Positions 22,382-27,050 of a stretch of 64,000 nt of DNA are shown one piece after another (the stretch's first letter is position 1; each line of letters begins with the position of its first letter). Below the pieces are notes generated by a model that saw nothing but the letters and a program-made list of their open reading frames with translations, did not search any database and was not told the DNA's origin. The stretch covers positions 1,144,501 through 1,208,500 of the forward strand of contig NZ_CP017415.1 of NCBI RefSeq assembly GCF_001753245.1, written 5' to 3'. Origin of the DNA: Acidihalobacter yilgarnensis (GTDB taxonomy: Bacteria; Pseudomonadota; Gammaproteobacteria; DSM-5130; Acidihalobacteraceae). A program made the translations under genes and the position numbers.

Positions 22382-23101
22382 ATGTCACGTTCTGCCTTTT
22401 TGTTGGCCGGCGGCCTCGCATCCCTGCTTATGCTCGGTGCAAGCGCTCAGGCACAAACCATCGAACTACCTCTGCCGCCGGATGCCAAGACGGTGAGCGT
22501 CAAGCCGGAGGCGAGGGTGCCCGGCGCCGAGTTGGCGACGGTCGCGCACGAGTTGGCGCGGCGCTATCCGGGCGCACAGGACAGCCATGTCATCGTGGTC
22601 GATATACGCCAGCAGCGCTTGTATCTGCTGCGCGACGGTCAGTTGCAGGTAAGTTACCGCGTATCCACCTCGCAATGGGGCATCGGCAACCGCGAAGGCA
22701 GCAATCGCACACCGATCGGTGTATTCCGCATTGCCCAGAAATTTGGTGCCGATGCAGCGCCTGCGACCATCTTCAAATCGCGCCGGGATACCGGCAAGAT
22801 CGCCCGCATCATTACCAATCCGGATAACCGCTCCGAACAGGATCTCGTGACCAGCCGGGTGATGTGGTTGACCGGTTTGCAGCCGGGCTTCAACGAGGGT
22901 GGCGACGTGGATACCCACAGCCGTTACATCTACATCCACGGCACGCCCGAGGAGGGGCGTATCGGTTTGCCTTCGTCACATGGTTGCGTGCGCATGATGA
23001 ACGGCGACGTGATTGCCTTATTCAGTCGTGTCCCGGTCGGGACCCTGGTGTATATCGCACCAGGCGATCGCCCGCTCACGGAGATTCCGGAGCGCTTGTG
23101 A
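22382..23101 (+). CDS. L,D-transpeptidase (YkuD family), secreted
   Basis: The 239-residue protein has a signal peptide (about 1-25, ending AQA) and a YkuD catalytic domain (about 65-225). The active-site signature HGTPEEGRIGLPSSHGCVRM is present, with nucleophile Cys202. Such enzymes make 3-3 crosslinks or attach lipoprotein to peptidoglycan. It starts eight bases after purF. Its last 84 bases overlap the end of the opposite-strand GGDEF-EAL gene, an unusually long convergent overlap. Confidence 0.95.
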   Translation: MSRSAFLLAGGLASLLMLGASAQAQTIELPLPPDAKTVSVKPEARVPGAELATVAHELARRYPGAQDSHVIVVDIRQQRLYLLRDGQLQVSYRVSTSQWGIGNREGSNRTPIGVFRIAQKFGADAAPATIFKSRRDTGKIARIITNPDNRSEQDLVTSRVMWLTGLQPGFNEGGDVDTHSRYIYIHGTPEEGRIGLPSSHGCVRMMNGDVIALFSRVPVGTLVYIAPGDRPLTEIPERL

Positions 23102-26100
23102 CGGGTCTTTGGGCGCGGTGCCTCCTGCAGAGCGGGTAGTAATGCCGGTCTCCGACGAACCAACCACCGACCAGAACAGCTCGAAGAAGGCGCGTTGGGC
23201 ATCGCGGATGTCTGCCATCGCGGCCGGGGTTACCGCGTGCTCGCAGCCGTCCTCGGCCTGTTGACACGTTTCGCAGGCCAATCCCTCGGTCTTGTGGGTC
23301 AGCGCATGGGCTTCGCCCAGCCGGTCGAAATCCGGATGCTCCCCGAACAAGGCCAATCCCTCCGCCGCATACCAGTATTCGAACCGGCAGACGGACAAGC
23401 CTTGGCCTGCGATGGAAATGTCGCCAAAGGCCATGCCCTCGGCGTGTTCGCAGCTTAGGCAGGCACTGAGATGATGTTCGGTGGCAATCGCCAACAGTCG
23501 ACAGTCCCTGGGGGTGGCCGCGTGATGTGCCCATTCGGGAAGTGTCTGGTTGGGTTGCTGCTGGCGCGTCCAATCGATGACGGCCTCTGGTGGCATAGGT
23601 CTTGCCGCCGCGTAGCCCTGGGCCAACAGACATCCCATTTCGAGTAATCGGAGCGCGTGCTCGGCGGTTTCCACGCCCTCTGCGATGATCTCGATATCCA
23701 GCAATCGCGCCGCGGTAATCAGCGCGGCCACGATGGCTTGATTTTGTGGATTATCGAGCAACTGTCGTATGAAGCTTTGGTCGATCTTGATCTGATCGCA
23801 GGGCAGGCGCTGCAGATAGCTGAGCGAGGCGTAGCCGGTACCAAAGTCGTCGAGGGCGATCTTCAGCCCGCGGGCACGGCAGGCGGCCAATACCTCAGCG
23901 GTTTTCTCCAGATCCGAGAGGTAGGCCGTTTCGGTAATTTCGAGCTTGAGCGCGGTTCTCGAAACCGGATGTTTACGCAAGGCAGTATCCACATCCTCCA
24001 GGAATTCGGGGGCTAGCAGGTGCCGTGCCCCGATGTTGATCGAGACCGTGGTTTCGAAGCCTTGAGCCCGCCACGTCGTGAGCTGGCTCAGCGCCTGCTC
24101 TAGCACATAGCGGCCGAGTGATCGGATCAGGCGACCATCTGCTTCGACCAAGCCGATGAATTCGTTGGCGGGGCGATGTCCGCCATTGGCCAGCGGCCAG
24201 CGGATCAACGCTTCGAAGCCAATGACCCGGCAGGAGGCGACATCCATTTGCGGTTGATAGTGCAGGACCAGATGGCACGCGTGGATGCTTTCCAGGAACT
24301 CGCGTTGTACGCGATGTCGGTTGAGCATCTGCTCTTCCATTTTCGGGTGGAAGAAGCAATAGCCGCTATCTTCGCCGAGCTTGGCCTCATGTAGTGCCAG
24401 GTCGGCGCGGCGCAACAGCGATTCAGGGTGCCGCCCATCGCCGGGACATTGCGCGAGACCGATATGCGCCTGGATGTTGACGATCTCGCCTTCGGGCAGA
24501 GTCAGCGGTGTACCCAAATCGTTCAGCAGTCGCTTCAGGGTGTCGTGCCAATGCGGGTCGCCGGCTCGTGGGTAGAGGATTAATCCGAATTCATCCCCGC
24601 TCAGTCTGGCAACCAGATCCTCGCCTTGGCGGAAGGTTTCCAGGCGCCTCGCGGCCTCGTTGACCACGCGGTCGCCGCTGTTGTGTCCCAGACGGTCGTT
24701 GATGCTCTTGAGTCCCATCAGGTCGAGTATGCCGATGGCGAATGGTGATGATTGTCTATGTACCAGAGCCTTGGCGCGCAACTCGGTCAGGCGGCCCATA
24801 AACAGGGTGCGATTGGGCAGGTGGGTCATTGGATCGTAGAGTGCGTTGCGCTGCAGTTCCTGTTCCTTGGCATAGTCTTCGAGCGATAGCCCGATCCGCT
24901 CCGCCAGTTCGCCGAAGAGTTTGAGCTTGGCCTGTTCGCAGACTTCGTCCCTGGCGGAAAAGATGGCCACGATGGCCTCCACGCGGTTTTGCCGCATGAT
25001 CGGCGCGAGGGCCAGCGAACGAATCCCGAATTCCTTGAGCAAAAACGGCCAAGCACCCAGCGCGGGTGTCTTGAAAATATCGGGCAGGCATTGCACCTCG
25101 GCGGACAGCAGCAATCGCTGGAAGACGTTCGATTCCGAGCTGGCGTCTATGCGGATGGCGGCAATGGCCTGTTCGATGTGGGCCAGTTCTTCGGGCTGTT
25201 CCGGTTGCGGGCTGACCACCTCGCTGTGCAGCCGCAGTGCCTGCCAGTCGACGCGGGCGATCCAGAGGAAGTCGGGGCGCAGCGATTGCTGAATGATTTC
25301 GCCGGCACGCCTGAACAGGGCAGCCGGTGCGGGGCGTTCGGCGATAAAGCTGTTGAGCGAGCTCAGCGCGGCATAGGTGTCGCGCAGGCGCTCGGCTTCG
25401 GTACGGGCCTTGATCAGGCTCTGCTCGCGCCGATGGACCTTGTGGCGCATACGGTCGAAGCTGATGGCGAGTTGCCCGATTTCATCCTTCGACGCGGTGG
25501 ACAGGGCGGTGTCGTATTGCCCCTTGGCCAGGCGCTGTGTGGCCATGACCAGCAGACGTATGGGTTTGGTGACCCAGCGATCCTGCACCAGGAGGCCGCC
25601 AAGAAGGACCAGCAGCATGAGTACGGCTAGGCCGATTTGGGCTTCTAGGATCGTATAGTGTTCGACCTGCTCCAATTCATGATCGTCGACGGAAACCTGC
25701 AGATAGCCGATGCGCTTGTCGTCGGTCCCGATGATCGGCAAGGTCAGGTGTACGCTTTGCCGGTAGGCGATGCCATCGCCGACCTGATGGACGAATGCAT
25801 GATCCTTGGGATTCTGTGGTGTCCCGAATAGTGGGTAGAGGCGCACGCCATCATTATTGCGTAACGTGATTTCGATCCAGTGAGGGTATTGCCGCTGCAT
25901 CAGACGCAGGTTGTCGTCGATGAGGGCCATATTGCCCGATTCGAGTGGCGCGGCGATACTCGTCGCGATCACCTGCATCTGTTTTACGGTCTTAGCCTCG
26001 ATCTGCGCGGTCGCTGCTTCGTCGACGTTGGGCAGCCAGAAATAGTGCAGCGCGCTGACCATCACCAGCAGGCTGGCCATGATTGCGATCAGGGGGAGCT

Positions 26101-26122
26101 GAAGCTTGAGTCGTATGCTCAT
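23018..26122 (-). CDS. membrane GGDEF-EAL cyclic-di-GMP protein with C-terminal CZB-like domain
   Basis: The 1034-residue protein has a membrane helix (about 8-28), a periplasmic sensor region (30-158), a second helix (about 160-181), HAMP (about 182-235), GAF (about 262-410), GGDEF (about 430-590), EAL (about 605-850) and a Cys/His-rich tail. The EAL domain keeps EALIRW, LEITET, DDFGTGYASL, KIDQSF and EGVET, so phosphodiesterase activity is likely. The GGDEF signature reads SGDEF and the RxxD I-site is absent, so the cyclase domain may be only regulatory. The tail holds EHHLSAC, VCRFEYWY and AHALTH, the spacing of a zinc-binding CZB domain, plus extra Cys. Its ATG overlaps the phnD-like stop by four bases. 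Confidence 0.9.
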   Translation of the reverse strand: MSIRLKLQLPLIAIMASLLVMVSALHYFWLPNVDEAATAQIEAKTVKQMQVIATSIAAPLESGNMALIDDNLRLMQRQYPHWIEITLRNNDGVRLYPLFGTPQNPKDHAFVHQVGDGIAYRQSVHLTLPIIGTDDKRIGYLQVSVDDHELEQVEHYTILEAQIGLAVLMLLVLLGGLLVQDRWVTKPIRLLVMATQRLAKGQYDTALSTASKDEIGQLAISFDRMRHKVHRREQSLIKARTEAERLRDTYAALSSLNSFIAERPAPAALFRRAGEIIQQSLRPDFLWIARVDWQALRLHSEVVSPQPEQPEELAHIEQAIAAIRIDASSESNVFQRLLLSAEVQCLPDIFKTPALGAWPFLLKEFGIRSLALAPIMRQNRVEAIVAIFSARDEVCEQAKLKLFGELAERIGLSLEDYAKEQELQRNALYDPMTHLPNRTLFMGRLTELRAKALVHRQSSPFAIGILDLMGLKSINDRLGHNSGDRVVNEAARRLETFRQGEDLVARLSGDEFGLILYPRAGDPHWHDTLKRLLNDLGTPLTLPEGEIVNIQAHIGLAQCPGDGRHPESLLRRADLALHEAKLGEDSGYCFFHPKMEEQMLNRHRVQREFLESIHACHLVLHYQPQMDVASCRVIGFEALIRWPLANGGHRPANEFIGLVEADGRLIRSLGRYVLEQALSQLTTWRAQGFETTVSINIGARHLLAPEFLEDVDTALRKHPVSRTALKLEITETAYLSDLEKTAEVLAACRARGLKIALDDFGTGYASLSYLQRLPCDQIKIDQSFIRQLLDNPQNQAIVAALITAARLLDIEIIAEGVETAEHALRLLEMGCLLAQGYAAARPMPPEAVIDWTRQQQPNQTLPEWAHHAATPRDCRLLAIATEHHLSACLSCEHAEGMAFGDISIAGQGLSVCRFEYWYAAEGLALFGEHPDFDRLGEAHALTHKTEGLACETCQQAEDGCEHAVTPAAMADIRDAQRAFFELFWSVVGSSETGITTRSAGGTAPKDPSQALRNLRERAIAWCDIHQGPDRDTTE

Positions 26123-27050
26123 GGCGCTAAGTCCGGCACCACATATTGAGGCAGGTTCAGCGTCTCTAGCGGTTTGTAGCGCGAATACTCGACCCGCCCG
26201 ATATGCCCAATTGGTACAGCTCCCAGCAACCGCCGGCCTTCCACGGAGTCATCCAGGTCAAGCAGTGCCTGGGTGATGCGCCGGATCACCGCTTCGGGTA
26301 CGCGGGGATTGACGGCGATCGGGTGGGTGGGCGCGCCGGGCGTGCGGTAGATGATGCGCAAGCGCTCCTGTACGGCTTTGGGTTGTAGGCGCAGGGTCGT
26401 GATTATTCCGCCACCGGCAGGTGCAAGCCCCAGCGCCACATCCAGATAGACGGAGGTATGGTTGACGACATACCACGGGTCCACCGAGACACCGAATTGG
26501 CGATACAGCTGCGCGCGCACGAGCAGAGTTGCAGCATAGGCATTCGGCGCGGGGAAGGCCATGCGACGACCGGCCAGTGCCTCGACGGAATGGATGGGGC
26601 CACTCTTGCGCACGACCACGATCCCGTGCATTTGGCGGCTGACGTCCGCGACCAGTGGGCGATAACCTTCGCGTCGATGGGCGACGAGTAGGTGATAGGG
26701 ATTCATGTAGGCGAAGTCGTAGTGGCCCGCGTAGAGGGCGCGTTCGAAGCTCGGGATGTTCTTGGGCACCACCAGCTTGAGGCGCACGCCGGCGGTCCGT
26801 TCGACGGCTTAAAGCAAAGGCTTCCAGATATCTTCGGTGCGCATCGGCGTGAACTGAGGCACGATGGCAAAGCTGTAGATCGGCGGGGGGGGATCGCGGT
26901 TGTGGGGCCATCTTCCGCGCGGGCCACGCCAATCCAGAAACTGGTCAGCAGCGCCAAGCATACCCATAGGGGCCGCTGCCATGAGGGGCTGGGCGCGCCG
27001 GGTCTGGTGAGTCGCTGGAAATGACGGTTTTGACGTCTTTTTATAGTCAT
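26119..27050 (-). pseudogene. PhnD/phosphonate-type periplasmic binding protein, broken by frameshift and stop
   Basis: The ATG at 27048-27050 opens a signal peptide ending GVARAED. The frame then breaks at a C8 run (minus strand; 26885-26892), after which IYSFAIVPQFTP, typical of PhnD-like binding proteins, continues in another frame. That frame meets an in-frame TAA (26809-26811) after EDIWKPLL; beyond it AVERTAGVRLKLVVPKN, SFERALYAGHYDFAYMNPYH and the rest continue to 26119. One missing C explains the first break. The TAA needs a base change, e.g. Glu GAA to TAA. Its stop overlaps the GGDEF-EAL start, so it probably encoded a periplasmic sensing partner. Confidence 0.82.

Follow-up and report, generated by a model that had tools for sequence, protein, structure and literature searches.

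In a window of 64,000 nucleotides (nt) from Acidihalobacter yilgarnensis (the whole stretch of DNA that was analysed, positions 1144501-1208500 of a genome that is a single contig of 3,566,941 bases), a gene for a PhnD-like periplasmic binding protein lies directly upstream of a gene for a membrane receptor with GGDEF, EAL and CZB-like domains. A first-pass annotation, made from the letters of the window, had read this pair as a cyclic diguanylate (c-di-GMP) switch with three inputs: a periplasmic ligand, a ligand of a GAF domain, and zinc or redox state at the CZB domain. In our analysis, the locus is probably a binding-protein-dependent c-di-GMP receptor of a widespread type whose binding protein has been lost in this genome. 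A three-input switch is unsupported here: the gene for the periplasmic input is broken, the GAF domain is weak, and the ligands are putative for all inputs. The pair in the window appears to be a receptor system of a widespread kind that is in the process of being lost, and by sequence comparison its CZB-bearing version appears to be a genus-level variant of the widespread pair. The features on which this reading depends are as follows:

26119-27050, minus strand: remnant of the PhnD-like periplasmic binding-protein gene, ATG at 27050, TGA at 26121-26119 (comparison with intact congener copies)
26885-26892, no strand assigned: run of eight G, site of a one-base frameshift and longest homopolymer of the window
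26809-26811, minus strand: in-frame TAA in the binding-protein gene (frame reading and alignment to a congener)
26119-26122, minus strand: ATGA, 4-nt overlap of binding-protein stop and receptor start (sequence)
23018-26122, minus strand: intact receptor gene, an open reading frame (ORF) of 1034 residues with orthologues in congeners G001 and G002
25577-26104, minus strand: two transmembrane helices, about residues 7-31 and 156-182, flanking a periplasmic domain (hydropathy)
25433-25579, minus strand: HAMP domain, residues 182-230 (Pfam, 47.1 bits)
24878-25318, minus strand: weak GAF-like domain, about residues 269-415 (PF01590, 27.0 bits against a cut-off of 22.4)
24377-24844, minus strand: GGDEF domain, residues 427-582 (Pfam, 112 bits)
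23597-24304, minus strand: EAL domain, residues 607-842 (Pfam, 231 bits)
23273-23500, minus strand: CZB-like zinc domain, about residues 875-950, with candidate ligands H883, C912, H939 and H943 (Pfam matches of orthologues and alignments)

The binding protein had been taken to be intact, which its reading frames do not bear out, two lesions having been overlooked. From the ATG at 27050 the gene encodes a signal peptide (MTIKRRQ...VARAEDGPTTAIPP), after which the frame is lost; the next frame reads IYSFAIVPQFTPMRTEDIWKPLL and ends at the TAA at 26811-26809, beyond which reading resumes with AVERTAGVRLKLVVPKN... and continues as far as 26119. The intact gene of a congener aligns across both lesions, which lie approximately 80 bases apart, with a one-base gap at the first, and the distal part of the broken protein still matches Phosphonate-bd (PF12974) with 155 bits. 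Owing to the frameshift and the TAA, an intact secreted binding protein is not present at the window locus. What remains open is an ORF of 222 residues (26119-26787, GTG start) without the signal peptide and without the start of the N-lobe; we rejected it as a separate functional small protein, as it has no signal peptide and begins inside the N-lobe. The overlap of the two genes that had been reported at 26119-26122 is indeed present, and inspection of the sequence ahead of the receptor start at 26122 revealed no obvious Shine-Dalgarno motif, which together suggest translational coupling. Because a stop now interrupts the overlapping, apparently coupled upstream gene, which is no longer read through, synthesis of the receptor may be lowered.

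The receptor itself runs from a first transmembrane helix through a periplasmic PAS-like domain, a second helix, HAMP, a weak GAF, an SGDEF-type cyclase domain and EAL to a CZB-like tail. Hydropathy, Pfam matches and catalytic residues all uphold the earlier description of a two-helix membrane protein with HAMP, SGDEF and an intact EAL: the HAMP, GGDEF and EAL scores are far over the Pfam cut-offs, the GGDEF motif reads SGDEF at residues 508-512 with its first Gly replaced, no RxxD inhibitory site occurs in the GGDEF domain, and the catalytic set of the EAL domain is complete (E637, N696, E728, D758, D759, K779, E815 and Q835). In view of this complete set, we rejected a non-catalytic receptor of the LapD kind. 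The proposed GAF domain fared less well, since PF01590 barely passes its cut-off, GAF_2 falls under its own (27.8 against 28.6 bits), and the Pfam scan of the G002 orthologue found no GAF. From the N-terminal 245 residues and 19 receptors from related loci, AlphaFold predicts a PAS-like domain between two long transmembrane helices (mean predicted local distance difference test score, pLDDT, 86). Foldseek returned weak matches of the periplasmic part to LapD- and CitA-type periplasmic domains, including the LapD orthologue 4u64; the top match, an integrative model of WalK, was matched mainly via its long helices and so was not used to assign a family. At its 3' end the receptor gene overlaps a convergent gene for a YkuD-type L,D-transpeptidase (22382-23101, plus strand) by 84 nt (23018-23101). 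The same genome yields 56 matches to the GGDEF/EAL protein, and one extra enzyme of this kind in such a genome is ordinary in itself.

The C-terminal zinc site proposed in the first-pass annotation is backed by profile matches of the orthologues and by conserved ligands, although the window protein alone stays below the Pfam cut-off: its full-length sequence gives no match to CZB (PF13682) at E<=1. The orthologous tails come close to the cut-off of 29.4 bits (27.3 bits, E=4.6e-6, for the distal part in G001; 26.6 bits, E=8.1e-6, in G002), and a DgcZ-like CZB-GGDEF protein encoded by this genome reaches no more than 26.9 bits either. The putative three-His, one-Cys set (H883, C912, H939, H943) does not vary when the tail is aligned with CZB domains from the same genome, and C912 and H939 lie 27 residues apart, as do C52 and H79 of DgcZ. 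All three receptor orthologues keep two extra C-x2-C pairs (C888/C891 and C952/C955) and a further cysteine, C960, with C952, C955 and C960 lying after the CZB-like domain; none of these extra cysteines was seen in two EAL-CZB tails of other genera (L186 and L192). AlphaFold, given the tail as a single sequence, produced a model of too low confidence to use (pLDDT 43), and we draw no claim about the fold from it. CZB-like domains under the Pfam cut-off also occur elsewhere in the genome (G000:C1 3334134, 1116831 and 846151; L002, L003 and L015), in a set made up of two GGDEF-EAL proteins with C-terminal tails and the one DgcZ-like CZB-GGDEF protein.

To place the pair among its relatives, a profile built from the three binding proteins of the genus was searched against GTDB genomes and sampled genomes of the class, yielding 80 kept loci in the former and matches in 63 of 369 genomes in the latter. 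A downstream ORF was available for 119 loci, and in 103 of these an ORF of at least 300 residues lies within 60 nt of the binding-protein gene (median gap 4 nt); the same holds for 67 of 77 loci after dereplication at 65% identity. The 68 dereplicated partners that were scanned (with row L159:1000-1002 of the 69-protein alignment omitted) carry HAMP in 59 cases, HATPase_c in 45, HisKA in 44, GGDEF in 21, EAL in 15 and CZB in one, the last being the G002 orthologue. A similarity search with the whole 1034-residue receptor, from which near relatives were excluded, gave no confirmed related loci, and the complete combination appears restricted to the genus. The co-occurrence expected of the pair therefore holds in that a PhnD-like gene lies directly upstream of a HAMP receptor gene in most relatives, but not for the CZB version, found in the genus only and in 1 of 68 partners. 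In one set of loci (L020-L033, from Pseudoalteromonas, Shewanella and others), the PhnD-like gene overlaps the HAMP receptor gene by 14 nt, unusually constant across genera; this receptor is without GGDEF or EAL and is probably a histidine kinase.

The periplasmic domain of the receptor is common to partners with different outputs. In the alignment of receptors, W82, Y96 and P97 of the periplasmic domain are invariant in 20 of 20 sequences, kinase- and cyclase-type partners together. In the pocket of the binding proteins, all or nearly all of 119 sequences keep two His, a GGG, an NP(Y) motif and a PQ pair, nearly all replace the oxyanion-binding S-x-S of AioX, ArrX and PtxB by A-x-(G/A), and no Cys was found in the pocket motifs inspected; the pocket residues of AioX are Cys106, Ser161 and Ser163 (PMC5908839). 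By sequence, the nearest solved relative is ArrX (E=1.4e-12), and the intact G002 binding protein scores 38.3 bits against TIGR03431, the PhnD phosphonate transporter model with a cut-off of 261.1. Sensing of phosphonate or arsenic was rejected as the oxyanion pocket residues are not kept; to judge from these motifs, the family looks like a sensory subfamily for which the phosphonate name is unsupported. It is possible, and we propose it only tentatively, that this is a large and apparently undescribed PhnD-fold sensory subfamily with a ligand of its own, which drives a common periplasmic domain whose outputs swap between kinase, cyclase and cyclase-phosphodiesterase, and to which the genus added a cysteine-rich CZB tail, bringing periplasmic ligand and cytoplasmic zinc or redox inputs to one enzyme. 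We found no open-access description of a PhnD-like protein paired with a GGDEF protein, which is weak evidence of absence, as subscription papers lay mostly outside the search.

Comparison within the genus bears on when the binding protein was lost. In G002 both genes are intact. In G001 the binding protein is intact and the receptor is interrupted at approximately codon 741, its N-terminal portion being encoded on contig C1 and the remainder on contig C6. Both junctions carry inverted copies of one 91-bp sequence (98% identical), and the same 8 bases, GAAAAAAC, flank the insertion on both sides as a clean target duplication. Judged by reading the sequences, one side of the insert encodes an ArsR-like regulator and a CDF-like efflux protein, and the other side has a MerR-like regulator and a copper-type P-ATPase together with a transposase-like ORF, pointing to a metal-resistance transposon as the element that split this receptor. 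Each of its ends (L182 on C6, L183 on C1) is about 12 kb away from the end of its contig, giving an element of at least about 25 kb if the contigs join. At the thresholds used, neither gene was found in two further genomes of the same family (G003 and G004). Between the window genome and G001, the ratio of nonsynonymous to synonymous substitution rates (dN/dS, Nei-Gojobori) is approximately 0.15 for the distal part of the binding protein as well as for each of the two receptor parts. When G002 serves as the outgroup, 15 changes are unique to the broken binding protein and 14 to the intact one. These similar values imply that the lesions are recent, or are errors, and suggest that both genes were under selection until recently.

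We infer that, in the intact form, the secreted PhnD-fold protein would bind a small ligand and dock on the receptor's PAS-like periplasmic domain, from which the signal would pass via the second transmembrane helix and HAMP to the SGDEF-EAL module and shift the balance between c-di-GMP synthesis and breakdown, with the CZB-like tail tuning output by zinc binding or thiol oxidation. In the window, the frameshift and stop codon would lock the receptor, possibly made in reduced amounts, in its binding-protein-free state. In the NspS-MbaA system, where the binding-protein gene also lies directly upstream and the receptor has SGDEF and EVL motifs, MbaA without NspS is a constitutive phosphodiesterase (PMC8079147). 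Because loss of NspS has this effect, the default state of the window receptor is, by analogy, probably that of a constitutive phosphodiesterase as well.

Several points weigh against this reading. It rests on sequence analysis, the isolated tail of the window receptor reaches only 14.7 bits with Pfam CZB (E=0.042; cut-off 29.4), and the direction of output leans on a functional analogue whose binding protein belongs to another Pfam family. Moreover, adjacent genes for a binding protein and a receptor (a kinase in that case) are not always functionally linked (PMC11113362). The lesions themselves could be assembly errors, one being a difference of one base where the window has its longest homopolymer. 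Were both lesions assembly or sequencing errors, the pair would work in the strain, with one input in the periplasm and another, through CZB, in the cytoplasm, which would also fit the distal binding-protein sequence, whose rate is not accelerated and which is under purifying selection. We nevertheless regard this as rather unlikely: the gene has two distinct lesions inside roughly 80 bases, and the fact that one is a stop codon rather than an indel makes error still less likely as the sole explanation; the independent breakage of the pair in G001 makes loss plausible in the genus.

Loss of the binding protein could also have left a receptor that is now re-used as an orphan c-di-GMP enzyme, controlled solely through zinc or redox at the CZB tail and possibly through GAF. 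Its ORF is fully open, all EAL residues and candidate zinc ligands are present, and its unique changes are as few as those in the congener; however, the lesions look too recent to tell retained selection on the receptor from none, and in the other broken case, G001, it was the receptor that was lost. Such re-use seems unlikely. It is very improbable that a second PhnD-like protein, encoded elsewhere in the genome (L178:4944-5840), replaces the lost partner in trans: this paralogue is intact (298 residues), but it is distant (E=3.6e-26 to the family profile) and has its own histidine kinase directly downstream, followed by a response-regulator-like gene. The locus of this paralogue and its 477-residue sensor kinase (L178:3510-5840, G000:C1 about 1370509-1372839) has a counterpart of the same arrangement in G001 (L179).

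With loss of the binding protein as the favored explanation, the window serves as a caution, in that the annotated finding describes a system apparently broken in the strain, and the genus supplies three natural states for comparison: an intact pair, a broken receptor and a broken binding protein. Few binding-protein-controlled c-di-GMP receptors are understood besides NspS-MbaA, and a 2022 review counted only one of the 27 families of the binding-protein clan as studied in c-di-GMP networks (PMC8846402). Because the family is widespread, with a uniform pocket and swappable outputs, one identified ligand would inform many receptors.

Among known systems, LapD is likewise a membrane GGDEF-EAL protein with HAMP and a weak structural match in its periplasmic domain. 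The enzyme domains of LapD are degenerate and its signalling is directed outwards, whereas the window receptor has a complete EAL catalytic set and adjoins a binding-protein gene. Subgroups of CZB proteins that contain EAL have been described before (PMC8262984), and the window tail resembles these and DgcZ in following EAL and in keeping the three-His, one-Cys set; it differs in scoring below the Pfam threshold, in lacking the Trp three residues after the first His, and in its conserved extra C-x2-C pairs and link to a binding-protein-dependent receptor. AioX-AioS and ArrX (PMC5908839) share a PhnD-fold sensory binding protein encoded beside a receptor gene, but the window family has not retained the Cys and the two Ser that line the AioX pocket, and the window output is c-di-GMP rather than a kinase, even though most family members pair with kinases. 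The closest working analogue appears to be NspS-MbaA, the polyamine receptor of Vibrio cholerae, which shares the upstream binding-protein gene, the membrane GGDEF-EAL protein, the periplasmic domain between two transmembrane helices and SGDEF, a motif reported in MbaA as needed for response and probably able to synthesise (PMC8079147). In contrast, the window binding protein belongs to Phosphonate-bd (PF12974), with no polyamine-type family among its Pfam matches, its gene is broken, and the receptor adds GAF-like and CZB-like domains. From this likeness, the binding protein of an intact window-type pair would be expected to set the balance between cyclase and phosphodiesterase.

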